A stretch of 64,000 nt of DNA from Psychrobacter sp. P11F6 (GTDB lineage: Bacteria > Pseudomonadota > Gammaproteobacteria > Pseudomonadales > Moraxellaceae): positions 1,922,001-1,986,000 of the forward strand of contig NZ_CM003594.1 of assembly GCF_001435295.1 (NCBI RefSeq), written 5' to 3'. Positions 2,920 through 58,296 of this stretch are shown piece after piece. The translations under genes were made by a program, and so were the position numbers. Under the pieces are notes generated by a model that saw only the letters and a list, made by a program, of their open reading frames with translations, did no database searches and was not told the origin of the DNA. Numbering within the stretch: position 1 is the first letter of the stretch; the number at the start of each line of letters is the position of its first letter.

Positions 2920-3331
2920 ATTATTCTGGGGTTTACTGATGGTATTTTTCACAGGGATACAGGCTATGTTGGACGCGGATGATCTGGCGTGAGTAATAGA
3001 AATAGGACGATAATAGCTGAAATAATGACAAAAACAATAATGACAATAATGGCTGATGCTAGGGATAGCCGTCAGGTATGATTTTAACACACCAAATACC
3101 AGACTCTGGTTTCGGTGTGTTATCGCTATTGCTTTATTGATGCTTAGGGTCTGTTGAACACTAAAAACTGCTGATTTATATACTGCATAGGTGACGTATA
3201 TTTTTGACAGCAAACAGATTACTGTCTACTATTATTTTGATCTATTATATATAAATGCGATCCACAAAAACTTATACCAACAAAATATAACCTGCAGCGA
3301 AATCCAACTCACCTATAGCAGACGCTCTATC
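2920..3331. other. Divergent intergenic region with an unexplained stem-loop and a solitary IS-end-like motif
   Basis: This 412-base spacer separates the leftward MFS gene from the rightward cutinase gene and must hold both promoters. At 3086-3121 the arms AACACACC and GGTGTGTT pair, with an inner ACCAG/CTGGT pair. No T-run follows on either strand, so it is not an intrinsic terminator. At 3147-3159 there is a GGGTCTGTTGAAC motif like the end of the IS5-family element found at 41973. Confidence 0.5.
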
Positions 3332-4321
3332 ATGCCCAAATATCCTTCTTATTCGCAATGGATTGTCGCTATAGGTGCACTGGTTTTCTCTATAAGTGCG
3401 TCGGCAGTTACGTTAGACGAAGTAGCCGCAACGAACAAGCTCACAATTAAAGAGCAATCGACCAAAATAGTATCAACCCCGATAGCGTCAGCGGTTGTAA
3501 TAACATCGCCTGTATCAACACCAGCCGTGCCATCAAACTGTATCGCCGACAGTACTATTACAGCGGCTAGTCTGTCAGATACGCGTGGTAAGGGGCCTTT
3601 TTCGGTGGCCAAAAAACCCGTTCCTCGTCAGTTAGCCAACGGCTTTGGTGGCGGAACCATTTATTATCCAACCAACGCAGGCGGCTGTGGTCTGTTAGGC
3701 GGAATCGCCGTGATACCCGGTTATGTGTCCTACGAATCTTCTATTAAATGGTGGGGGCCACGTTTGGCATCTTGGGGATTTGTGGTTATTACCATCGATA
3801 CCAACTCCATTTATGATGACCCAGAGAGCCGTGCGGCGCAGTTAAGTGCCGCGCTTGATCATATGCTTCGTGACAATACGGTAGGCGCTCAGATAGATAG
3901 TACGCGCTTGGGTGCTATTGGCTGGTCAATGGGCGGCGGCGGTGCTCTCGATCTAGCGACAAAACGTCAGACGGTTCGAGCGATTATTCCACAAACGCCC
4001 TATCACGATAAAGACTATGGCGAAATGAACACGCCTGCTTTATTCATTACTTGCCAGAATGACCGTATTGCCTCAAATAAAAAATACAGCAGTCGTTTTT
4101 ATGATAAAGCTACAGGCGCAAAAATGAAGATTGAGATAAAGAACGGTAGCCATTTTTGTCCAAGTTATCGTTTTAATGAGATATTGCTGAGCAAGCCAGG
4201 TATTGCTTGGATGCATCGCTATATTAATGGCGATACCCGCTTCGAGCAGTTTTTATGTCGTAACGACAATTATGGTAACAATCCTCGTATATCCGCTTAC
4301 GACTATAAAAACTGCTCATAA
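3332..4321 (+). CDS. Secreted PETase-like polyester hydrolase / cutinase (Moraxella lipase-1 type)
   Basis: A 329-residue exported alpha/beta hydrolase predicted to cleave ester bonds in lipids or polyesters. A signal peptide ends near Ala25 (SISASA). The lipase box GWSMGGGG places the nucleophile at Ser199, with Asp244 (CQND) and His274 (GSHFC) completing the triad. Tyr131 and Met200 match the oxyanion positions of Ideonella PETase. Cys241-Cys276 sit exactly like the extra active-site disulfide of that enzyme, and Cys309-Cys328 like the C-terminal one. Two further cysteines (70 and 119) could form a third bond. Tyr224 replaces the PETase wobbling Trp, and Phe275 and Tyr252 replace two of its small serines. 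Family knowledge: Moraxella sp. TA144 lipase 1 belongs here and is cold-active. The ATG at 3332 is chosen because it begins the signal peptide. PET activity is inferred, not shown. Confidence 0.88.
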   Translation: MPKYPSYSQWIVAIGALVFSISASAVTLDEVAATNKLTIKEQSTKIVSTPIASAVVITSPVSTPAVPSNCIADSTITAASLSDTRGKGPFSVAKKPVPRQLANGFGGGTIYYPTNAGGCGLLGGIAVIPGYVSYESSIKWWGPRLASWGFVVITIDTNSIYDDPESRAAQLSAALDHMLRDNTVGAQIDSTRLGAIGWSMGGGGALDLATKRQTVRAIIPQTPYHDKDYGEMNTPALFITCQNDRIASNKKYSSRFYDKATGAKMKIEIKNGSHFCPSYRFNEILLSKPGIAWMHRYINGDTRFEQFLCRNDNYGNNPRISAYDYKNCS

Positions 4322-4423
4322 ACAAGGCGCTCATGAGAAAAGCACTGATAAACTAGGTACTGATAAACTAGACACTTATAAACGATCCGCTGGTCAACGT
4401 CTGACTTAGGAGCACTGAGCATA

Positions 4424-4454
4424 GAAAAAAGCTACCGAAATGGTAGCCTTTTTT
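4424..4454. terminator. Bidirectional intrinsic terminator
   Basis: GCTACC (4431-4436) and GGTAGC (4442-4447) form the stem, flanked by A-run and T-run on opposite sides. It lies between the convergent cutinase and ankyrin lipoprotein genes and can serve both. Confidence 0.85.
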
Positions 4455-4472
4455 GTAAAGTCATTAACCCAA

Positions 4473-5264
4473 TTATTCACAGCTCGCTTTGCCAGTGCGA
4501 TGATTCACAGCACCATTGGCGGCTAATAGCTTTTGCATATCAACCAAATCTCGCGAACACGCATATGAATAGGCACCTTGATTATACGAGCCCATTTTTT
4601 TGTCTTTGGTCGTTGCCACTAGATTTGGATTAGCACCTTGCGCCAATAAATATTTGACAGTTTCAAGGCGATTATTACTAGCTGCAACCATAATCAAGGT
4701 TTCACCATCACTTTCTACCGTCTGATCATTTAAGTCCACAGGCGCTTTTTCATTCAATAACGTATGTACTTTTTTGACAATATTGGTATTTTTTCCCAGT
4801 ACAGCAGATTTCATGACGTTATACACATCACCGTCATCTTTAGCATAGATATCAGCGCCTTTACTGACTAAGTAATCGACCATATCTTCATAGCCGATAA
4901 AAGCAGCCCAGCCTAACGCCGTTTGGTTAAGGCTACCTGTATCTTTAACTTCTAAGTCTTGACCATTGTTAACCATGTATTTAACCTTGGCTAGATCACC
5001 ATGTTTTACGGCGTCAAACCAAGTAGCATCTGCACCTATAGAGGGTTTGTCATAAAACACACGCCAAGAAAGTTTGTTTTGATTGGCAAGATCAACATTC
5101 TCAGTAGTGCTGAAACGAAAACCCACTTGTGGGACTGGTACGGTTTGAGCAGCTTGGATAGTGTCCATTTTAGTGACGCTGTTATCATTGTTTAGGCTTG
5201 AGCAACCTGCTAGTAACATCGTTGCCATAACCGCTGATGCGCTCATTTTTCCAAAAAATCTCAT
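4473..5264 (-). CDS. Ankyrin-repeat lipoprotein
   Basis: A 263-residue protein with a lipoprotein signal peptide: MRFFGKMSASAV..., hydrophobic stretch, then lipobox LLAGC with Cys21 as the lipidated residue. Residues about 75-250 contain ankyrin-type repeats: WFDAVKHGDLAKVKYMVNNG, TALGWAAFIGYEDMVDYLVSKG and TLIMVAASNNRLETVKYLLAQG. Ankyrin repeats bind other proteins, so this is likely a periplasmic or outer-membrane-anchored binding protein, possibly an immunity or chaperone-like partner, but no partner gene is adjacent. Ribosome site GAAGG lies about 8 bases before the ATG. The gene stands alone, convergent with the cutinase gene. Function is not known. Confidence 0.82.
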   Translation of the reverse strand: MRFFGKMSASAVMATMLLAGCSSLNNDNSVTKMDTIQAAQTVPVPQVGFRFSTTENVDLANQNKLSWRVFYDKPSIGADATWFDAVKHGDLAKVKYMVNNGQDLEVKDTGSLNQTALGWAAFIGYEDMVDYLVSKGADIYAKDDGDVYNVMKSAVLGKNTNIVKKVHTLLNEKAPVDLNDQTVESDGETLIMVAASNNRLETVKYLLAQGANPNLVATTKDKKMGSYNQGAYSYACSRDLVDMQKLLAANGAVNHRTGKASCE

Positions 5265-5565: not shown

Positions 5566-6312
5566 ATGGCCGATAAAATTCATGATTTAGGGGCAGGATT
5601 TTGGAATATACGCGGATCTTTTCGCATTGGCGGTGTTCTAAACATTGGTACTCAGTGCTCACTTATACAGTTAAACTCAGGAAAGTTTATATTTTTGGAT
5701 AGCTATTCATTGACTGGTGACGTACGCGATGAGGTGATGGCATTAACCAATAATGGTCAAGATGTCGAAGCAGTACTGAACGTCCACCCATTCCATACGG
5801 TGCACTGTGCACAAATGGCAAAAGACTTCCCGCAGGCGACCTTTTATGGCAGTAGCCGCCACCATAAAAAAGTACCTGAAGTACAATGGGCAGATGACTT
5901 AGTTGAAAGCGATGCGGTCGCCAAGCGTTACCCTGAGCTTAAGTTCTCAATGTCACAAGGCATCCACTATATCTCACCCAATGAGATGATTCATGCAGGC
6001 TCACTATTAGCCTATCATCCTGCCAGTCAAAGCTTGCACGTCGATGATACCTTTATGAGTCCACCGATGAAATTATTAGAGACGATATTACCTGAACTGA
6101 TACTACACCCAACGACCAAAAAAGCGCTAAAAAATGAGCCCGATGCAGGCAAGCAATATTGCGATTGGGCAAGCAATTTGGCACATGAATGGCGCGATGT
6201 GCGTAATTTCTGCGCCGCACATTCCTATTTAGTGACATTTAATGACGGTGAGTTTGAAGTGGCGCTATTAAAAGCCATTGATAAAGCCCGTCCAAAATTA
6301 GAAAAAGCTTAA
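5566..6312 (+). CDS. MBL-fold (metallo-beta-lactamase-like) protein
   Basis: A 248-residue cytoplasmic protein with the beta-sheet pattern of the MBL fold: LIQLNSGKFIFLDSYSLTGDV in the first strands, then a histidine cluster NVHPFHTVHC (His74, His77, His80) where the HxHxDH metal motif would be. A later LHVDDTF supplies a possible Asp ligand. The classical DH pair is altered, so the metal site is either variant or lost. Ribosome site AAGGA lies 9-10 bases before the ATG. The gene is followed directly by a strong terminator and is likely monocistronic. The reaction cannot be named. A hydrolase or oxidoreductase-like role is possible from the family only. Confidence 0.72.
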   Translation: MADKIHDLGAGFWNIRGSFRIGGVLNIGTQCSLIQLNSGKFIFLDSYSLTGDVRDEVMALTNNGQDVEAVLNVHPFHTVHCAQMAKDFPQATFYGSSRHHKKVPEVQWADDLVESDAVAKRYPELKFSMSQGIHYISPNEMIHAGSLLAYHPASQSLHVDDTFMSPPMKLLETILPELILHPTTKKALKNEPDAGKQYCDWASNLAHEWRDVRNFCAAHSYLVTFNDGEFEVALLKAIDKARPKLEKA

Positions 6313-17743: not shown

Positions 17744-19360
17744 ATGAGTACTGAATACCAGTTTAAGCCCCATGAACGACCATTCATGCTTGGCTCGCCT
17801 GCCACCCCTGATCACCCTGTGCGCCGTAAAGTATTTTATTTACTGATTGGTATTTTTATCGGCTTAACTGCCAGCTTTCAGAATGGTCTATTGGTCGCGA
17901 ATCTCACTCAAATCCAAGGTGAAATGGGCTTAACACCAGTAGAAGGTGGCTGGATATCAGTCGCTTACAATATGACCAATGCTTGTGTCACGGTGCTGCT
18001 GTACAAAATTCGCCAGCAATTTGGCATGTCGTTATTTAGCAAAATCACTTTGTTCTTTTTATTGGCAGCCACCAGTATGCAGTGGCTGGTCAGTAGCAAT
18101 CTGCTCAGTACAATGACTGGCATCAGCATCGAGCCTTATTATTTAGAGCTGGTTGCCCGTGGCTTTAGTGGTGTGGTGGCTAGTGCGATGACAGTATTGT
18201 CTATTTTTTATTGTCTACAAGGCATGCCAACTGCTCGGCGTATCAGCGGACTTATTTTGGGCTTTGGCTTGGTGCAGTTTGGCATTCCACTGTCACGGAT
18301 TATCTCGCCTTATTTAGCCGTTGATGGTCAGCTTGAAGGTTTATTTTTATTTCAAGTGGGATTATCGCTGATTTGCTTTGGGCTTATTAACATTCTTGAG
18401 CTACCACCGGGCAACACGGAAAAGGTCTTTGAAAAACTTGATTTGGTGAGTTTTGGCTTTTTTGCCAGTGGTCTTGCCGCCCTATCCGTATTTTTAGTAC
18501 AAGGTAGAATTCAATGGTGGACGATGCCTTGGCTTAGCTATCCATTGATCATTGCCGTCGTAACTATCTCAATTGCTTTATGGATCGAAACGCACCGCAA
18601 AAACCCTATGTTACAAGTGCGCTGGATGCGTAGCCGCACCATTATTGCCTTTATGATAACAGGCGCTGTGATGCGTATTTTGTTGTCTGAGCAAAGTGTG
18701 GGCGCCGCAGGATTATTAGCAAACCTTGGTTATGGTAATGACCAGCTGATTGTTTTCTATGCCATCATCTTGGTGGCTAGCATACTGGCATTAGTGATTA
18801 GCATTTTTACCACCAAAGCGACGGATCTGCGCCGACCAGTGATTTTTGCGGTTGCATTGATTGCGATTGGTGCATGGATAGATACGGGTGTGTCGCTAAA
18901 CTCTGCCCCTTATATGTTCTATTTCAGTCAGTTTATAATCGCTTTTGCTGCCGTTTACTTCATGGGACCAATGGTATTTGAAGGTATGTTTCGCGCCATT
19001 GCTAACGGACCTGCCTATATTATTAGCTTTTCGGTGATTTTTGGTATTTCACAAACGATCGGCGGTTTGGCAGGCGCGGCAGGTATTCAAGCATTTACCA
19101 CCATTCGTACTCAGATGCATTATGCCGATATGGTCAGTTCAATGAATACCACTGATCCTGCTACGATGACCCAAATGCTACAGGGTGTGCAACGTCAAGC
19201 AACGGTCGCCGCTTATGACGATTTATTCTTTTTGATGGCCGTGAGCGCCACCATCACCGCGCTATATTTATTGATGGTTTATTTTTATTACCTTTATCAT
19301 AAACGCAATCCACTTGGTAAAGAACTTGCCGCATTGGCAGAAATGATGGGCAAAAAATAA
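17744..19360 (+). CDS. DHA2-type MFS efflux transporter (EmrB-like)
   Basis: A 538-residue inner-membrane protein with about 14 hydrophobic segments, the layout of DHA2/EmrB-type drug exporters. The start region LLIGIFIGLTASFQNGLLVANLT and EMGLTPVEGGWISVAYNMT are typical of TM1-TM2. The next gene encodes an HlyD/EmrA-type periplasmic adaptor, so the two form a tripartite efflux pair that would borrow a TolC-like outer-membrane protein from elsewhere in the genome. No clear ribosome site precedes the ATG. No local regulator is seen, and the substrate is unknown. Confidence 0.83.
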   Translation: MSTEYQFKPHERPFMLGSPATPDHPVRRKVFYLLIGIFIGLTASFQNGLLVANLTQIQGEMGLTPVEGGWISVAYNMTNACVTVLLYKIRQQFGMSLFSKITLFFLLAATSMQWLVSSNLLSTMTGISIEPYYLELVARGFSGVVASAMTVLSIFYCLQGMPTARRISGLILGFGLVQFGIPLSRIISPYLAVDGQLEGLFLFQVGLSLICFGLINILELPPGNTEKVFEKLDLVSFGFFASGLAALSVFLVQGRIQWWTMPWLSYPLIIAVVTISIALWIETHRKNPMLQVRWMRSRTIIAFMITGAVMRILLSEQSVGAAGLLANLGYGNDQLIVFYAIILVASILALVISIFTTKATDLRRPVIFAVALIAIGAWIDTGVSLNSAPYMFYFSQFIIAFAAVYFMGPMVFEGMFRAIANGPAYIISFSVIFGISQTIGGLAGAAGIQAFTTIRTQMHYADMVSSMNTTDPATMTQMLQGVQRQATVAAYDDLFFLMAVSATITALYLLMVYFYYLYHKRNPLGKELAALAEMMGKK

Positions 19361-48352: not shown

Positions 48353-49390
48353 ATGAAATTTTCACTATTTTTACATATGGAACGCCTCGACGAATCACAG
48401 AGCTATCAACAACTGCATGATGAGTTCATTGAGTTGGCGAAAATAGCCGACCAAGGCGGCCTGCATGCTATTTGGACTGGTGAACACCATGGTATGGATT
48501 TTACCATCGCCCCAAACCCATTTTTAAATCTAATTGATCTATCCCATCACACCGAAAACGTACGTTTAGGTACTGGTACGGTGATTGCACCGTTTTGGCA
48601 TCCGATCAAACTGGCTGGTGAAGCGGCCATGACTGACATTATCACTAACGGCCGATTGGATTTGGGAATTGCTCGCGGTGCTTATAATTTTGAGTATGAG
48701 CGCTTAATGCCTGGTATGGATGCCATGGAAGCAGGCGGTCGCATGCGTGAACTTGTCCCTGCCGTACAGCAACTATGGAAAGGTGACTACGCCCACAATG
48801 GTAAGTATACCCAATTCCCATCAACCACTTCAGCGCCAAAACCTTTACAAAAAGGTGGCGTACCCATGTGGATTGCAGCGCGCGACCCTCATAGCCACAA
48901 CTTTGCAGTAGAACATGGCTGCAACGTGCAAGTCACCCCGCTATGGCAAGGCTTAACAGAAATCCAAAATTTAATGACAGCCTTCAAAAATGCCAAAGCT
49001 GAACACGGCGAAGGTAAAAATCCAAAAATCATGCTGTTGCAACATGCATATGTTGGGAGTGATGCCAATGACGTAGCTGAAGCTGCTAAATGTATCAGCC
49101 GTTTCTACTGTTATTTTGGCGCGTGGTTCAAAAACGAACGTCCTATTCGTCAAGGACTACTTGAGCCATTAAGCGAAGAAGAAATGGCAAAAATCGACAT
49201 GTATGCTCCTGAAAAAATGTTAGAGAACATGCCTATTGGCACATCTGATCAGGTCATTGAAAAACTCAAAGTATACGAAGAGCTTGGCTATGACGAGTTT
49301 GCATTTTGGATTGACTCTAGTATGACTTATGAGCAGAAACAAGCATCCTTGCGCCGTTTTATTGATGATGTCATGCCAGCATTTGCATAA
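48353..49390 (+). CDS. tgnA: Luciferase-like flavin-dependent monooxygenase, TgnA-like oxygenase
   Basis: A 345-residue LLM-class TIM-barrel monooxygenase. Seen: GLHAIWTGEHHGMDFTIAPN, VRLGTGTVIAPFWHPIKLAGE, GRLDLGIARGAYNFEYERL and PMWIAARDPHSHNFAVEHG. These enzymes use reduced flavin from a partner reductase and O2. TgnA opens the pyridinium ring of trigonelline. The reductase gene is directly upstream and the dehydrogenase for the ring-opened product directly downstream, as expected for tgnA. AAAGGA precedes the ATG. Confidence 0.85.
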   Translation: MKFSLFLHMERLDESQSYQQLHDEFIELAKIADQGGLHAIWTGEHHGMDFTIAPNPFLNLIDLSHHTENVRLGTGTVIAPFWHPIKLAGEAAMTDIITNGRLDLGIARGAYNFEYERLMPGMDAMEAGGRMRELVPAVQQLWKGDYAHNGKYTQFPSTTSAPKPLQKGGVPMWIAARDPHSHNFAVEHGCNVQVTPLWQGLTEIQNLMTAFKNAKAEHGEGKNPKIMLLQHAYVGSDANDVAEAAKCISRFYCYFGAWFKNERPIRQGLLEPLSEEEMAKIDMYAPEKMLENMPIGTSDQVIEKLKVYEELGYDEFAFWIDSSMTYEQKQASLRRFIDDVMPAFA

Positions 49391-49451
49391 CCATACTTAG
49401 TTTCTAGTAGATGACAAACAGATAACCCAATAAGAAATTTGGAGAACCACT

Positions 49452-50939
49452 ATGGCTAAACCTCATTATCAACTTTATATTAATGGCGAGTGGTGCGAAG
49501 GGAGCACTAACCAAGTCCTAGACAGCTATAATCCTGCAACGAATGAAGCATGGGCAACATTCGCTTGTGCTAGCTCTGCTGATGTCGAACGCGCTGTCGA
49601 TGGTGCTAAGACTGCACTGAATAATCCTGAATGGGCAAAGATGACTGCCACCCAACGCGGTAAGTTATTGTACCGCTTAGCAGATCTGATTGAGCAAAAT
49701 GCCGAAACACTAGGGGAAATTGAAACAACGGATAGTGGCAAATTGGCTCATGAAACTGTGGCTCAGACACGTTATGTCAGCGACTATTATCGTTACTTTG
49801 CAGGACTGGCTGACAAAGTAGAAGGCGCTACACTACCAATTGATAAGTCAGATATGCATGTTTTTACCACGCGTGAACCTATTGGCGTAGTGGCTGCTGT
49901 TGTGCCTTGGAATGCGCAAATGTTTTTAACAGCGACTAAGCTAGGTCCAGCTCTAGCAGCAGGCTGCACGATCATTCTAAAAGCTTCCGAGGTAGCACCT
50001 TGCCCTATGTTTGCTTTTGCTGAACTAGTAGAACAAGCAGGCTTCCCTAAAGGTGTCGTATCTATCATTACAGGTGATGCTGAAAACTGTGCCATTCCAT
50101 TGACCAGTCACCCTGATATAGACAAAATCGCATTTACTGGTGGGCCCGATGCAGCAAGGCACGTAGTCAGAAACTCTGCCAATAGCTTTGCGGTAACGAG
50201 CTTGGAGTTAGGTGGTAAATCACCCATCATCGTCTTTGAAGATGCGGACTTGGAAAGTGCGGCAAACGGTTTGATTGCTGGTAATTTTGGCGCTTCCGGT
50301 CAGTCTTGTGTGGCAGGATCTCGTGGTTTTATTCACCGTTCTATCTTGCCTGAAATTATCAAACGTGTAGAAGAAAAAGCCAAAAATATTGTCATTGGTA
50401 ATCCTCTTGATACCAGTACTCACGTAGGCCCTTTATGCACTAAGGCTCAAGTAGATCGTATTAAAGATACGCTTGAGAAGGCAGTTTCACAAGGGGCGAC
50501 CATTCGTTTCGGTGGCCAGCCGCCTACTGATCCTGCTTTAGCTAGCGGCAATTACTTTACGCCTACCTTAGTAGAATGTCCTAATACTGATATTGAAACA
50601 CAAAGTGTGGAGATGTTTGGACCTGTCATGTCTTTAGTTGCTTTTGACACTGAAGACGAAGCTATTGCTATGGCAAATGACAGTGTCTATGGCCTAGGCT
50701 CTGGTGTCTTCACTCAAAACTTAGCTCGGGCGCACCGTGTCTCACAACAGATTCGTTCAGGTATTTGCTGGGTAAATACCTATCGAGCTATCTCTCCTAC
50801 AGCACCCTTCGGTGGTTACAACCAATCAGGTTATGGACGTGAAGCTGGGAGCGAATCTGTACTGCAATATACTCGCACAAAAACGACATGGATTAATATC
50901 TCGGCGGAGCCGATGGCCAATCCTTTTGTTATGAGGTAA
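49452..50939 (+). CDS. tgnC: Aldehyde/lactone dehydrogenase, TgnC-like
   Basis: A 495-residue NAD(P)-dependent aldehyde dehydrogenase. Cofactor segment PWNAQMFLTATKLGPALAAG, glutamate in TSLELGGKSPIIVFED, catalytic Cys in FGASGQSCVAGSRGF and PFGGYNQSGYGREAGSES at the end. In the trigonelline pathway TgnC oxidises the 5-hydroxy-butyrolactone intermediate to the methylenesuccinate. GGAG lies before the ATG. It lies 61 bases after tgnA and 42 bases before the transporter gene. Assignment depends on gene order; sequence alone gives only the ALDH family. Confidence 0.82.
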   Translation: MAKPHYQLYINGEWCEGSTNQVLDSYNPATNEAWATFACASSADVERAVDGAKTALNNPEWAKMTATQRGKLLYRLADLIEQNAETLGEIETTDSGKLAHETVAQTRYVSDYYRYFAGLADKVEGATLPIDKSDMHVFTTREPIGVVAAVVPWNAQMFLTATKLGPALAAGCTIILKASEVAPCPMFAFAELVEQAGFPKGVVSIITGDAENCAIPLTSHPDIDKIAFTGGPDAARHVVRNSANSFAVTSLELGGKSPIIVFEDADLESAANGLIAGNFGASGQSCVAGSRGFIHRSILPEIIKRVEEKAKNIVIGNPLDTSTHVGPLCTKAQVDRIKDTLEKAVSQGATIRFGGQPPTDPALASGNYFTPTLVECPNTDIETQSVEMFGPVMSLVAFDTEDEAIAMANDSVYGLGSGVFTQNLARAHRVSQQIRSGICWVNTYRAISPTAPFGGYNQSGYGREAGSESVLQYTRTKTTWINISAEPMANPFVMR

Positions 50940-50981
50940 CCACTCGATGCAATCCACTACATTAGTTTTAAGGAAGAAACT

Positions 50982-52718
50982 ATGTCTATTCGTCCCCCAT
51001 TGACAGAGCTAAACATAAAAACTCACGACAAAGGTTTTTATAAAGGTTTTAACCGTATTGTCACTATAACATCAAAGATTTTGGTGACAATAATGGTTAT
51101 CTGGATCCTAAGTGACATCGATCGTTCCGGCGCAATTCTAGATAATATGAAAAACTGGTCTTACACCAATCTCAATGGCTACTATACCTATTCTGTCGCA
51201 TTTTATATATTTGTTTGCCTAACCGCTATTTTATGGCCATCGTTTGGACGCACGAAACTTGGCTCCGACCCTAATGGAAAACCTGAATTTTCAAATTTTT
51301 CATGGTTTTCCATGATTTTTGGGGCAGGTATTGGTATTGGTGTACTGACCTATAGTGCTGCCGAACCTATCTGGCATTTGGCAAACAATCCTGACACTAT
51401 TATGTCAAAAGAAATAATAATGTCAGCGTTGAACGCTAACGGCCTGAAACTGCCTCAAGGTGCTGACGTGTTCAGTTTTTATCAAGACCAAGTGGCAGCC
51501 AGTACTTTAACTGCTATCGATGGCGTGGTATTACCCAAAACTGAATCAGCGCTAGACGCGGCCTTTCGCTATTCCTTTCTACACTGGGGTATCAGTGCTT
51601 GGGCAACTTATTGCCTAGTCGGTATTTGTTTGGCGTACTTTAGTTATTCTCGTGGATTACCATTAACTATGCGCTCAGCACTATCACCTTTGTTTGGTAG
51701 ACACTTAGAAGGGTTATTGGGCCATATTATTGATATATCTGCCGTCATTGCCACTATATTTGGTATTGCACAAACGATTGGTATTGGCTTAAGCTCATTT
51801 GCTTCTGGGCTATACAGTATTACTGGTATTACTTGGTTGGTGACCAATACTAATAACCCTGAGCCCACCACTGGAGCATTATTACTATCGTTGTTTGTGG
51901 TCATGTGCCTAGCGATGATTTCTGCTTTGTCAGGTGTTGGACGAGGCGTCAAGTGGTTAAGTAATATCAATATGATATTATCATTTTCCCTTTTAGCTTT
52001 TTTCTTGATTTTTGGGGCCTCTATGTTCGCCTTAGAAATGCTAGGCAAGGGGATTTTTACCTACGTTGTGCACTTGCCTGCAATGGTATTTACCGTCTGG
52101 GATCCCGATACTGAACTGGGCAGCTGGCAAACCAGTTGGTCTATTTTTTACTGGGCGTGGTGGATTGCTTTTGCACCATTCGTTGGTATGTTTTTAGCAC
52201 GTATTTCCAAAAACCGTACCATTCGTGAATTTGGATTGATTGGTATCGTAGCACCTAGTCTGACACTGTTTGTCTGGTTCTCTTTCATTGGTGGTACTGG
52301 CATCGATTTAGAGTTAAGTGGTATTGCTGGTGGTAAAATATTTGAGTCAGGGTTAACTGCTCAGCTATTCGAAATTATTGGCTTTATGTTAGAGCCAATG
52401 ATGGCAAAAATATTATCAGCTATGGTGGTGGTATTGCTATTAACCTATTTGGTTACTTCTGCTGACTCTGCATTGCTAGTTGTCAATATGCTCAATGCTG
52501 GTGGTGAGATCGCAGTTGAAAATGGTCAAAAACACATTGTCGTATGGGGTCTTGCTCTGGCTTCCGTTATTGCAGCACTGTTATTAGCTGGTGGACTGAG
52601 TGCTATTACCTCGGCTATGATTATTGCCGCAATACCCTTTTCACTCATCATTATTTTGATGGCAGTCAGTTTACTGAAGGCTCTTATTTTAGATGGCGTA
52701 CGAAAAAGAGAAAAGTGA
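50982..52718 (+). CDS. BCCT-family betaine/carnitine/choline-type transporter
   Basis: A 578-residue inner-membrane transporter with 12 helices. The glycine stretch MIFGAGIGIGVLTYSAAEPIWH and the BCCT signature WSIFYWAWWIAFAPFVGMFLARIS are present, then VTSADSALLVVNML. BCCT carriers take up quaternary-ammonium compounds; trigonelline is a betaine (N-methylnicotinate), so this is the natural uptake gene for the cluster. Cation dependence is not predicted. AAGGA precedes the ATG. Last gene of the rightward operon. Confidence 0.87.
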   Translation: MSIRPPLTELNIKTHDKGFYKGFNRIVTITSKILVTIMVIWILSDIDRSGAILDNMKNWSYTNLNGYYTYSVAFYIFVCLTAILWPSFGRTKLGSDPNGKPEFSNFSWFSMIFGAGIGIGVLTYSAAEPIWHLANNPDTIMSKEIIMSALNANGLKLPQGADVFSFYQDQVAASTLTAIDGVVLPKTESALDAAFRYSFLHWGISAWATYCLVGICLAYFSYSRGLPLTMRSALSPLFGRHLEGLLGHIIDISAVIATIFGIAQTIGIGLSSFASGLYSITGITWLVTNTNNPEPTTGALLLSLFVVMCLAMISALSGVGRGVKWLSNINMILSFSLLAFFLIFGASMFALEMLGKGIFTYVVHLPAMVFTVWDPDTELGSWQTSWSIFYWAWWIAFAPFVGMFLARISKNRTIREFGLIGIVAPSLTLFVWFSFIGGTGIDLELSGIAGGKIFESGLTAQLFEIIGFMLEPMMAKILSAMVVVLLLTYLVTSADSALLVVNMLNAGGEIAVENGQKHIVVWGLALASVIAALLLAGGLSAITSAMIIAAIPFSLIIILMAVSLLKALILDGVRKREK

Positions 52719-53709: not shown

Positions 53710-55137
53710 TCACATATCAAAAATTTTACCACGGTTCATAATGTTGTTTGGATCGAATACTTTTTTGACTTCTTTTAAGTACTCAATCTCAGTCTCACTG
53801 CGGCTATAGTGCAAGTACGGCTTCTTTGTCATACCAACCCCATGTTCAGCAGACACGGAACCGCCATATTTCTGTACCGTCTCAAACACATATTTATTGA
53901 CGACCTGACACTCAGCAAAGAAATCATCTTTGCTCATGTTTTCAGGTTTTAAGATATTCAGATGCAAATTGCCATCGCCAATATGACCGAACCAGCACAC
54001 TTCAAAGTCAGGATAGTTACTGCTGACAATATGATCAATCTCTTCTATAAAGGTCGGTACATGGCTTATCAGTACAGAGACGTCATTTTTGTAAGGGGTG
54101 AATACAGAGATAGTCTCAGAGATATATTCACGTAGCTTCCACAGCTCTGCTGCTTGCGTGAGGTTCTGGCTCATGACGCCATCAGCGACCCAACCTTGCT
54201 CCATACAGTGCTCAAATATGGCCATGGCTTTATCCATAATCGGCTCATAAGGTGCTTCAAACTCTAATAGCGTATAAAACTTGGTGCGTGATTCAAACGG
54301 TTCTTGTACTTGACCATGTGCCATCAGCTTATCAATCGCCACATCATCAAAGAATTCAAAGGCGGTCAAATCAATCTTCGCTTGAAAGGCAGAGAGCACG
54401 TTCATCACATCGTTAAAGCTGTCCATGCCAAGCACCATGACGTTTAAGTCTTTTGGCTGACGCTCAAGTTTGATTTGCGCATGAGTGACGAGACCTAGTG
54501 TGCCTTCACTACCGATGAATAATTGGCGCAAGTCATAACCAGTAGCGTTCTTTATCATGCCGCGATTCAGCTGCAAGATATCGCCTTTACCCGTGACGAC
54601 AGTCAGTCCCATAATCCATTGACGAGTCATGCCATAACGAATGACTTTGATACCGCCAGCATTGGTACCGATGTTGCCACCGATTTGACTAGAGCCTGCT
54701 GAGGCAAAGTCGACAGGGTAGTATAAGTCTTTTGATTCAGCGAATTCTTGCAACTGTTGGGTGACCACACCGGCTTCGACTTCAACTATTCGATCGGCAG
54801 GATAGAACTGTCCGATGTGGTTCATTTTATCCATACTGACGACTATCTCACCGTTGGCTGCGACGGCACCGGCAGACAGGCCTGTACGACCGCCACTTGG
54901 GGTTAGGACGACGTTATGCTCATTGGCCAGCAGTACGATAGTCTGTACTTGTTCGGTGGTCTTTGGAAAGACGATGGCAGAGGCAGCAGGGGCAAAGTGC
55001 TTGGTCCAGTCTTTACCCCAATGCTCTAGGCTTTCAGCATCGGTTTTGATTTGGCTGGGATCGAAACTATGATCTTGTTGCAACTTTTGAATGATAAGAT
55101 CAACCACCCCTTGTGATAGGTCTAAAAAACTATTCAC
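53710..55137 (-). CDS. FAD-linked D-2-hydroxyglutarate dehydrogenase-like oxidase
   Basis: A 475-residue FAD enzyme of the GlcD/D2HGDH family. The PCMH FAD-binding domain shows TPSGGRTGLSAGAVAANGEIV and GGNIGTNAGGIKVIRYGMTRQW. The C-terminal domain shows FGHIGDGNLHLNIL and GGSVSAEHGVGMTKKPYL with the metal-binding histidines. Members oxidise D-2-hydroxy acids (D-2-hydroxyglutarate to 2-oxoglutarate, or D-lactate). Directly upstream in the same direction are a DUF1338/HglS gene, whose product in Pseudomonas is D-2-hydroxyglutarate, and an aminotransferase, so D-2-hydroxyglutarate is the likely substrate. Start is GTG at 55137. Confidence 0.85.
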   Translation of the reverse strand: MNSFLDLSQGVVDLIIQKLQQDHSFDPSQIKTDAESLEHWGKDWTKHFAPAASAIVFPKTTEQVQTIVLLANEHNVVLTPSGGRTGLSAGAVAANGEIVVSMDKMNHIGQFYPADRIVEVEAGVVTQQLQEFAESKDLYYPVDFASAGSSQIGGNIGTNAGGIKVIRYGMTRQWIMGLTVVTGKGDILQLNRGMIKNATGYDLRQLFIGSEGTLGLVTHAQIKLERQPKDLNVMVLGMDSFNDVMNVLSAFQAKIDLTAFEFFDDVAIDKLMAHGQVQEPFESRTKFYTLLEFEAPYEPIMDKAMAIFEHCMEQGWVADGVMSQNLTQAAELWKLREYISETISVFTPYKNDVSVLISHVPTFIEEIDHIVSSNYPDFEVCWFGHIGDGNLHLNILKPENMSKDDFFAECQVVNKYVFETVQKYGGSVSAEHGVGMTKKPYLHYSRSETEIEYLKEVKKVFDPNNIMNRGKIFDM

Positions 55138-55248
55138 CGGATATATTCCCTACGATAGTAAATGAGAACGCATTAATAGCTGCCACTATTTTTATCAATA
55201 GTGACACAGATATTTTGCTATTTTAAGCCGACTATATGTGTTTAAATC

Positions 55249-56676
55249 TTATGTCGTCTTTTGCAAGGCAACAAAACAATTTTGCAGACTCTGAGCTTGG
55301 GTCATCTCATACAAAGCCAATTCATCTTGAACATGAGTACCCAGTGCTTTTTCAAACGCCTGTTGATTTGAATTTCCCTCATAGCTACTTTGTTTATCAT
55401 CACGTAGATTCGACTGAAAAATTCCTGCCGCACTCACAGGTAAAAAATCTTCGTAAACAATAGGCTCAATACGCATCACGTTTTTTTCGATCAGCTCGAT
55501 AATCGCAGATTTGGACTCAGCCATCTCCAAGCTCGTGAACTGCAAGTCAGTATTGCTGTTATCCACGGGTTGATAATAAAAATACGCCAAGCCTTCGCTA
55601 TGTAGCGTTTGATAATCATCAGGAAATTCATCAAATGTCGCTTCTAAAATCTGATAATACTGTGAGGCATTGGCTTCATTTGGGGTCATACCTAGCTGGT
55701 TACGAGCGTCACTCAGCAGTTTGTCATATAGTGCTCGACCCTTTGGCGTCAATGCCACGCCGCGCTGCTCAATCTCACCAAAGCGTGCCGTATGTTGGCC
55801 TTGCTCATAGCTATTTTGTCCTGCATCGGCCAACGTATTCTTAAAGCGAACCGCCTCCTCTAGTGCCTTAAAGCTCGTTTGTCTTAACAAAATCGGGCAA
55901 TTTCGTTTTGGTGGCCCTTCGATGATCGCTTTTGGCGGTATCCCTCTTGCTTGCATGCTATGCTGTACAGAATCAATATCCAAGGTTCGAGGGGTTAGGT
56001 GGTTGATATGTGGGCCTTTGAACCCAACCACATCAGCGATGAGACCATGTTGCTGCAACAGCTTTTCATACAGCGTCTTTGACACAGGGGTATTATCATG
56101 CCAGCGAAACGTTTCTAGTGCCTCAGCGACGAACTGTTGACCTGCTTGCTCACTCAATCCACCTTGCGCCTCAAAAGACTCAATAAGTTCGATGACAGTA
56201 TTAGTAAAGATATTACGGCGGGCCAAAGCTGCTACGGCCTCTTCTTTGAGCGCTTCATCACCAATGAGATCTAAGCGTAATAATGACGTAAATACTCGGA
56301 AAGGACTTTTGCTCAATGACTCTGCATCTATCGCTCGAAATGCGGTGGAGTGTACGGGCACGCCAGAAGGGGCTAAATCATAGTAGCCCACAGGATACAT
56401 ACCCATCACCGCAAACAATCGACGCATCATACTAAGCTCAGCAGCAGTACCCACTCTAATGGCACCGTGGCGCTCCATACTGAGCCTATTCATTTCGCCA
56501 GTACGCTCAAGCTGCGCTTTAAGATCAGGTTGAGCAGCTAAAACCTCAGTATTCACGTCAGTGACCAAATCAACAAGATTACCATATAACGGTACTTCTG
56601 CTTGATACATCGCTGACATGGCCATAGAAAACTCATGGCGAATGTCATCACTGCTCATAAAGCTGTTATTATTCAT
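55249..56676 (-). CDS. hglS: 2-oxoadipate dioxygenase/decarboxylase (HglS, DUF1338)
   Basis: A 475-residue DUF1338 protein. HglS of Pseudomonas putida converts 2-oxoadipate with O2 to D-2-hydroxyglutarate and CO2 using iron. Likely metal and substrate residues are His70 and Arg74 (MERHGAIRVG), His226 (GFKGPHINHLTPRTLD) and a Glu near 301 (ARFGEIEQRG). The His70/Arg74/His226 numbering agrees with the Pseudomonas enzyme as recalled. AAGGA lies about 11 bases before the ATG. It is 63 bases after the aminotransferase gene and 111 bases before the D-2-hydroxyglutarate dehydrogenase gene. Confidence 0.86.
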   Translation of the reverse strand: MNNNSFMSSDDIRHEFSMAMSAMYQAEVPLYGNLVDLVTDVNTEVLAAQPDLKAQLERTGEMNRLSMERHGAIRVGTAAELSMMRRLFAVMGMYPVGYYDLAPSGVPVHSTAFRAIDAESLSKSPFRVFTSLLRLDLIGDEALKEEAVAALARRNIFTNTVIELIESFEAQGGLSEQAGQQFVAEALETFRWHDNTPVSKTLYEKLLQQHGLIADVVGFKGPHINHLTPRTLDIDSVQHSMQARGIPPKAIIEGPPKRNCPILLRQTSFKALEEAVRFKNTLADAGQNSYEQGQHTARFGEIEQRGVALTPKGRALYDKLLSDARNQLGMTPNEANASQYYQILEATFDEFPDDYQTLHSEGLAYFYYQPVDNSNTDLQFTSLEMAESKSAIIELIEKNVMRIEPIVYEDFLPVSAAGIFQSNLRDDKQSSYEGNSNQQAFEKALGTHVQDELALYEMTQAQSLQNCFVALQKTT

Positions 56677-56739
56677 AGATATTTATCCTTTTTTACATCT
56701 ACGGCGGGCTTGAATCCCATTAATAATTAATCTGTATAT

Positions 56740-58017
56740 TTAAGACCACTCGACTGGATTTTTATTAGGAATCGTACTTAATACGTCTCTTAAAATATCA
56801 AGGCCATCTTGCAGCGTTTCAGGCTCAATGGTCAGAGGTGGTAACAATCGAATGATATGACGGTATTTACCACTTGGCATGAGCAGTAAGCCTCGCTTTC
56901 GCGCTTGGGTTAGTACGTGAGTCATCACACTAGGATGCGAGCCATACGTAGCATGACGCAGCTCAATACCGCGCATCGCTCCAATACCCGTGAGACCATA
57001 TAGCCAAGGGGAAACGCCTTCCGCCTGCCATTGCGCGATACTTGTTTCAATCTCTTGCGCATAGTGCTTAGCAGATGCCCATATCTCATCCTCTTGCATG
57101 ATGTCTATCGTGGCATTTGCCGCTGCACATGCCACTGGATTACCAGAGTATGTACCGCCCAAACTGCCTTTAGGCAGGCCATTTATGACACTGGCCTTGC
57201 CTACAACCGCACCTAAGGGCAAGCCGCCTGCGATGCTTTTGCCCAGTAGTATCACATCTGGCTCAATGCCCAAATGTGAAAAGGCAAAAGGTGAACCAGT
57301 ACGCCCATAGCCTGATTGAATCTCATCCATAATCAACAAGATACCGTGCTCATCACAAAAGGCGCGCAAGTACTGAGCAAAAGAGGGTGACATTAATTGA
57401 AACCCACCCTCCCCTTGTATGGGCTCTGCGATAATCGCACCAATATTACTGATGTCAGTTTCTACTTCAAACAAACGATTTAGCGCATCGATTGCCTGTT
57501 GGTCGCTCACCTCATTATCTGGACTAGGGAAAGGAATGTGATAGACACTGCCGGCTAACGGCCCCAATCCTCGCTTGTAAGGAGCAACTTTACCATTCAA
57601 GTTGACAGCAGCAAGTGTCCGTCCATGGAACCCACCATCAAACGCAATGACACCGACGCGCTGGGTTTTGAGACGGGCAATTTTTATGGCGTTTTCTGTG
57701 GCTTCCGCACCAGAATTGGTGAGCATGCCCGAGAGCTCACCACTGATAGGAATGAGCTCGCACAATCGTGGCATGAAGGTTTGATAGGGAGTGTGAGCAG
57801 CTGCATTGTAAGCATAATGAATGAGCGATTGGGTTTGATTGATAATGGCCGTCACGATGTGAGGGTGGCAATGTCCGAAGTTCAAGACGCCAATACCACC
57901 CACAAAATCAATATAGCATTGGTCGTTATTATCCCAAACTTTTGCATTTTTACCTTTAGTTAAGGTGATGGGATGCACCATCGTAAAAGCATCAGTGACA
58001 TTGTATAACTTATCCAT
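56740..58017 (-). CDS. Class III aminotransferase (probable 2-aminoadipate transaminase)
   Basis: A 425-residue PLP enzyme of the GabT class. Seen: DFVGGIGVLNFGHCHPHIV, NSGAEATENAIKIAR, FDGGFHGRTLAAVNL, the Asp motif LLIMDEIQSGYGRTGSPFAF and the PLP Lys region PDVILLGKSIAGGLPLGAVVG. GabT-class enzymes act on 4-aminobutyrate, 5-aminovalerate or 2-aminoadipate. Because the next two genes convert 2-oxoadipate to D-2-hydroxyglutarate and 2-oxoglutarate, 2-aminoadipate is the best-fit substrate. The longer frame to 58116 begins with unconserved residues; ATG 58017 (MDKLYNVTDAFTM) is chosen. Confidence 0.84.
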   Translation of the reverse strand: MDKLYNVTDAFTMVHPITLTKGKNAKVWDNNDQCYIDFVGGIGVLNFGHCHPHIVTAIINQTQSLIHYAYNAAAHTPYQTFMPRLCELIPISGELSGMLTNSGAEATENAIKIARLKTQRVGVIAFDGGFHGRTLAAVNLNGKVAPYKRGLGPLAGSVYHIPFPSPDNEVSDQQAIDALNRLFEVETDISNIGAIIAEPIQGEGGFQLMSPSFAQYLRAFCDEHGILLIMDEIQSGYGRTGSPFAFSHLGIEPDVILLGKSIAGGLPLGAVVGKASVINGLPKGSLGGTYSGNPVACAAANATIDIMQEDEIWASAKHYAQEIETSIAQWQAEGVSPWLYGLTGIGAMRGIELRHATYGSHPSVMTHVLTQARKRGLLLMPSGKYRHIIRLLPPLTIEPETLQDGLDILRDVLSTIPNKNPVEWS

Positions 58018-58296
58018 TAAGAGTCTCTTATCTTCCTTAAGTGTGACCCTCATTTCAGCAAAACCTGATGCACTCAGCAAACGAATAATAGTTGTGCGTT
58101 CATTCCTTTTTGTCATTGTGGTAAAAAATCAAAGCTAAAACAGGAAAGACCTAAGCATAAATATATGTTCAATCAAAGTCTTATGAAGCCTTTCAACAAA
58201 TTCCAATTAAATGCACTTGCACTGATTACTATCGATTAGCGGTAAATATTTATCTGACCAACAAGCACGATTCGTTTTTTGACGGTTCAATATGCC

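Follow-up and report, generated by a model that had tools for sequence, protein, structure and literature searches.

The PETase-family gene and its protein

The window analysed here, a 64,000-nucleotide stretch of the Psychrobacter sp. P11F6 genome (NZ_CM003594.1, positions 1,922,001 to 1,986,000), carries near its start a gene for a PETase/cutinase-like polyester hydrolase (positions 3332-4321, + strand, as are all features of this gene given below). Translation of this open reading frame (ORF) yields a 329-residue protein with a single terminal stop. The protein matches the PF12740 PETase profile at 287.6 bits (cut-off 28) and, by sequence search, 8spk_A, a structure of the enzyme Mors1, at E=1.7e-138, so the ORF is not a chance one; these matches, together with the phylogenetic tree described below, identify the gene as an ortholog of Mors1. 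Mors1 (TA144 lipase 1), compared here through entries P19833 and PDB 8spk, is described in passages of PMC11509169 as an enzyme of Moraxella sp. TA144 with a 1.6 Å crystal structure. The enzyme gene is present as a single copy in the host genome.

The first 25 residues, ending in SISASA (3332-3406), form a probable Sec signal peptide whose boundary was judged by eye, and the Psychrobacter relatives of the protein have a hydrophobic N-terminus of like kind. Residues 26-69 (3407-3538) constitute a variable, probably disordered leader ahead of Cys70, as suggested by its length variation and by a weak predicted model in which the predicted local distance difference test (pLDDT) score stays below 50 for residues 1-69. 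The comparison drew on 47 distinct Psychrobacter sequences, assembled from the loci of 30 genus-scan matches, 34 close-relative loci and the family and order scans, with identical sequences merged; loci L031 and L004 are included, and a second copy in genome G204 and the gene pieces of genome G213 are not. Across this set, 48 to 87 residues precede the cysteine equivalent to Cys70, a variation that fits a flexible spacer. Judged by the number of the first cysteine, 70 in the window protein and 60 in Mors1, the leader is about 10 residues longer than that of Mors1. Downstream of the gene, a stem followed by a T run (4431-4454) is suggestive of an intrinsic terminator; four terminator-like sites occur on both strands of 3000-4700, against 1.5 expected in shuffles.

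The active-site assignments of an earlier preliminary description of this DNA were checked by translation and alignment. Y131, S199, M200, Y224, D244, Y252, H274, F275 and the cysteines C70, C119, C241 and C276 all lie at the numbers given there; C309 and C328 bring the cysteines of the protein to six. The Ser-Asp-His triad thus reads S199, D244 and H274, with Met200 following the nucleophile in a GWSMGG motif (Ser199 and Met200 at 3926-3931) and Tyr131 as the other oxyanion residue. Cys241, one half of the predicted active-site disulfide, and the catalytic Asp244 delimit 4052-4063; catalytic His274, Phe275 and Cys276 occupy 4151-4159; and Cys309 and Cys328, the ends of the predicted C-terminal cutinase disulfide, delimit 4256-4315.

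Alignment also places Tyr224 (4001-4003), as proposed, where IsPETase has a Trp that we take to be Trp185. This tyrosine occurs in all 47 Psychrobacter sequences and in 3 of 30 other relatives. The further proposal that Phe275 and Tyr252 replace small PETase residues holds as far as both residues are present, but Phe275 (44/47 Psychrobacter sequences) is the common state. Tyr252 alone is unusual, since Phe275 is also found in 21 of the 30 other relatives (Ser in 2) and Tyr252, carried by 43 of the 47, in none of them; position 252 is there occupied by His (18), Gln (10) or Ser (2). Position 163 is variable in Psychrobacter, with Asp in 24 of the 47 sequences, Asn in 19, Arg in 2 and His and Lys in one each, and is Gln in 17 of the 30 other relatives. 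Two of the 47 sequences are anomalous: the L004 frame runs on for 400 residues from stop to stop and has an altered C-terminus without Cys328, and the L031 frame stops early, ahead of the catalytic His. Such anomalies would be explained by errors of sequencing or by gene decay.

A third cysteine pair conserved across Psychrobacter

Cys70 (3539-3541) and Cys119 (3686-3688) were proposed in the preliminary description as partners in a possible third disulfide from the N-terminal leader to the loop ahead of beta-strand 3. They are suitably placed for such a bond, and their counterparts in the Mors1 alignment are Cys60 and Cys109. According to passages of PMC11509169, these residues form a third disulfide confirmed in the Mors1 crystal; by analogy, Cys70 and Cys119 would be bonded in the window protein as well. 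The two cysteines occur together in 47/47 distinct Psychrobacter sequences and 0/30 other relatives. Cys119 lies inside a two-residue insertion absent from the aligned PET6, L098 and IsPETase, and none of the 30 non-Psychrobacter relatives in the alignment has a Cys in its column. The Cys70 column holds a Cys in 23 of the 30, and in 20 of the 30 the first 75 residues contain two cysteines separated by just 2 to 5 residues, counts to be read with the fact that some PDB rows are matched stretches from which N-terminal cysteines may be missing.

The third disulfide of PET6, a hydrolase of Vibrio gazogenes (7z6b), was considered as a homologous bond and rejected, because PET6 pairs Cys27 with Cys30 (as given in a passage of PMC9679969) and its residue aligned with Cys119 is Gly. 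A review passage stating that the Mors1 third disulfide "was also reported in PET6" (PMC11509169) consequently equates two different bonds. Mors1 and PET6 carry their third disulfides at different places; the two bonds most likely have separate origins and therefore do not represent one cold adaptation shared by the two enzymes.

In two distant same-order relatives, L117 (residue 88) and L118 (residue 107), a lone cysteine lies 49 residues past the N-terminal pair, a spacing equal to that of Cys70 and Cys119. It aligns with residue 128, and at about 26% identity we read the spacing as a probable chance resemblance.

Phylogeny, distribution and locus

A phylogenetic tree was inferred from 71 rows over residues 77-326, leaving out the Cys119 column. 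L031, L110, L111, L114, L115, L116 and L118 were excluded, and L104, which has a masked stretch, was dropped before alignment. The tree places the window protein inside the PETase clade, in a group of 46 Psychrobacter rows plus Mors1 with support of 100/100. Mors1 nests inside Psychrobacter, as sister to L089 (99/75), and a starred group with L042 has support of 95/84. TA144 is itself named Psychrobacter sp. TA144 in a reference title (PMC4224046) and in a table (PMC10312091). The stem of the Psychrobacter/Mors1 clade is long, at 0.78 changes per column. Moving outward, the clade is followed by PET6 and same-order relatives, then by 7ec8, 8ais and Ple628, then by L095/L096, then by the type I rows and last by IsPETase. 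These deep placements are rough, because the ultrafast bootstrap was not yet fully converged (correlation 0.978) and the six outgroup rows do not fall on one side of a branch, two being on the wrong side.

The preliminary description had read the protein as marking a distinct subclass of possible cold-active polyester hydrolases. The clade is real and well supported and has its own residue set, including its own cysteine pair, Tyr224 and an active-site loop that is a residue shorter than those of IsPETase and PET6; these features, with the long stem, speak for a new and unrecognised subclass. The group is not newly recognised, however: Mors1, a member, holds every named residue and has already been crystallised and assayed, with its third disulfide and subsite-I changes described. 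An unrecognised subclass was therefore rejected as very unlikely. We tentatively advance a different proposal, at somewhat less than even odds: the enzymes of the Psychrobacter/Mors1 group would constitute a PETase subtype of their own, next to IIa and IIb. Such a subtype would be defined by a genus-specific Cys70-Cys119 staple (with Cys119 brought in by the two-residue insertion), by Tyr in place of Trp185 and by the loop one residue shorter, all fixed before the carriers diversified, and with the staple in place the active-site loops could afford to be flexible in the cold.

The attribution to a psychrophile-type genome was borne out by the close-relative scan, in which all 34 loci belong to Psychrobacter. 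Of 105 Psychrobacter genomes, 50 gave a match at E up to 1e-20, a count that includes the host genome of the window and G213, which has a broken copy; within the genus, identity to the window protein ranges from 61% upward. A PF12740 scan of 199 family genomes returned matches stronger than 1e-78 exclusively from Psychrobacter, the best outside the genus reaching 2.5e-29. Counting the window's own genome, 18/293 genomes matched at 1e-15 or better in the order scan (four of them Psychrobacter) and 3/369 in the class scan.

The gene is flanked by a major facilitator superfamily (MFS) gene on one side and by ORF 5566-6312 on the other in 33 of the 34 loci, the exception being L023. All 12 examined genomes without an ortholog retain the MFS gene, and in six of these the ankyrin ORF or ORF 5566 is found adjacent to it, on the near side; the other six are uninformative, because only about 1.5 kb beyond the MFS match was covered. 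No recognisable enzyme remnant was found in the 12 ortholog-less loci by tblastn at E up to 10, which returned four matches of 13-23 residues with E of 1.6 or worse. The patchy presence of the gene (50/105 genomes) could be taken for a recent horizontal acquisition, for instance in response to plastic pollution. The same neighbours in 33/34 loci led us to reject this reading, and deep divergence inside the genus and plasmid matches confined to five records, at 43.9% identity or less, likewise make it scarcely credible. Among viral contigs, 28 pattern matches included no relative of the enzyme. The enzyme gene is thus an old chromosomal resident, and the data fit either an early gain with losses or several gains at one place.

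Several further observations concern the locus and the rest of the window. ORF 5566-6312 (+) encodes 248 residues without a Pfam match at 1e-3, and L125 has two tandem matches to it. G204 has two divergent enzyme copies (C12:40258-41103 and C11:8548-9384), and in G213 (C41:9190-10096) the enzyme appears as two overlapping pieces, the larger with an internal TGA. Elsewhere in the window, 53710-58116 (-) encodes an FAD-linked oxidase, a 2-oxoadipate dioxygenase/decarboxylase (HGLS) and a class-III aminotransferase in a row, which we take to resemble a lysine/2-oxoadipate breakdown cluster. A luciferase-like monooxygenase, an aldehyde dehydrogenase and a BCCT transporter follow one another at 48353-52718 (+), and a 538-residue ORF at 17744-19360 (+) matched nothing in Pfam at E up to 1e-10.

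Predicted function and relation to known polyester hydrolases

Taken together, these data indicate that the product of the window gene is most probably (at roughly 95%) a secreted serine ester hydrolase within the type IIa-like group of poly(ethylene terephthalate) (PET) hydrolases, the Psychrobacter ortholog of Mors1. Several results weigh against this reading. The match to the bis(2-hydroxyethyl) terephthalate (BHET) hydrolase equivalog NF051441 (NCBIfam) scores 244.9 bits, below its curated cut-off of 520. No clear ribosome-binding site was seen by eye upstream of ATG 3332, and promoter matches (6, against 4.5 by chance) are not clearly above expectation. PET activity may differ from that of Mors1, because identity is 74% and position 163 is variable within the genus. 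Two structure predictions of the protein reach mean pLDDT values of 57.5 and 68.5, with the Cys70 arm below 50 in both; being weak overall and in that arm, a weakness due to alignments that were too uniform, the models do not test the Cys70-Cys119 bond.

Hydrolysis by the catalytic triad is established for the PETase family, and the window protein would be expected to follow the same course. The signal peptide would direct export, DsbA-type enzymes would form the three disulfides (Cys70-Cys119, Cys241-Cys276 and Cys309-Cys328), and the mature alpha/beta-hydrolase may then exit via type II secretion. Both disulfide formation and this route are possible given the three DsbA-family matches and the GspL-family match (49.7 bits, cut-off 25.5) in the host genome. 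Ser199, activated by His274 and Asp244, would attack the ester carbonyl, with the oxyanion held by the Tyr131/Met200 backbone and the acyl-enzyme subsequently hydrolysed. The third disulfide would fasten the N-terminal arm onto the loop that precedes the following strand, which may steady an otherwise flexible, cold-adapted fold.

TA144 is said to have been first a source of cloned lipase genes (Feller et al. 1991, known by its title in a reference list), and P19833 is presumably one of the three TA144 lipase genes of that work. For this reason, lipids or natural polyesters are the most likely natural substrates, and PET hydrolysis would be a side activity. The host genome gave no Tannase-family (MHETase-like) match, a result without weight given that no control match was obtained either. 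The same lipase history, together with Tyr224, Tyr252 and Asp163, which alter subsite I relative to IsPETase, would also suit an ordinary secreted lipase or esterase acting on lipids, without useful PET activity and resembling PETases through shared ancestry only. Such an enzyme is unlikely here, because Mors1, identical to the window protein at each of these positions, clears polycaprolactone (PCL), with an optimum at 25 °C, and degrades amorphous PET film at 25 °C, as reported in passages of PMC11509169, which also give a melting temperature of 52 °C. The window protein is a PETase-clade hydrolase and, by analogy with Mors1, probably cold-active.

Mors1 and the window protein are identical at 194 of 261 ungapped positions and differ at 26% of aligned positions. 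They agree in the triad and oxyanion residues, in having Tyr for Trp185 as well as Asp163, Tyr252 and Phe275, in all six cysteines and in the four loop residues that were compared (279-282). Numbering is offset by 10, so that Mors1 Tyr214 and Asp153, which passages of PMC11509169 place in subsite I, correspond to Tyr224 and Asp163, its active-site disulfide Cys231-Cys266 (same source) to Cys241-Cys276, and Cys60-Cys109 to Cys70-Cys119. The kind of enzyme, the third disulfide and the residue set are accordingly already known from Mors1; the present analysis adds that the cysteine pair is conserved genus-wide and absent from the 30 other relatives examined, that the bond of PET6 is a different one and that the locus is conserved.

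Type IIa enzymes are defined in passages of PMC12442448 and PMC11509169 by two conserved disulfides, one at the active site and one C-terminal. Cys241/Cys276 and Cys309/Cys328 align with the type II cysteines and probably pair likewise, and Phe275 stands where IsPETase has Ser238, a site occupied by Phe (or Tyr) in type IIa. In the window protein the active-site loop stretch (270-295) is 26 residues long; IsPETase and PET6 have 27 and LCC has 24. The stretch is thus two residues longer than in type I and one shorter than usual for type II, the type IIa definition calling for three more than type I.

PET6 resembles the window protein in its active-site and C-terminal disulfides, Phe at 275 and possession of a third, N-terminal disulfide, but has Trp at 224, His at 252 and Gly at 119, and its third bond does not join the arm to a later loop as placed in the window protein. 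IsPETase (type IIb; the entry compared, 8j5n, may be an engineered form) and LCC (type I; 4eb0) share the fold, triad and oxyanion residues, whereas IsPETase has Trp, Ser and Ser at 224, 252 and 275 and lacks Cys119, and LCC lacks the active-site disulfide and has the loop two residues shorter.

Closer to the window, passages of PMC8857425 report a PET hydrolase annotated in the Psychrobacter nivimaris LAMA 639 genome, with 69.5% identity to P19833; this locus (L022) has the same kind of gene and the same flanking genes as the window, and its protein is 65% identical to the window protein. A table in PMC8540959 lists PET8 (P19833) and PET9 (Psychrobacter sp., A0A0D4L7E6), the latter, known here by accession and length only, being the same kind of gene in the same genus, and a passage of PMC10312091 describes candidate PET hydrolase genes in Moraxellaceae. 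Psychrobacter as a genus offers a range of naturally occurring counterparts of Mors1, itself a PET hydrolase with an optimum at 25 °C. Their identity to the window protein falls to as low as 61%, and they could help separate cold activity from stability.
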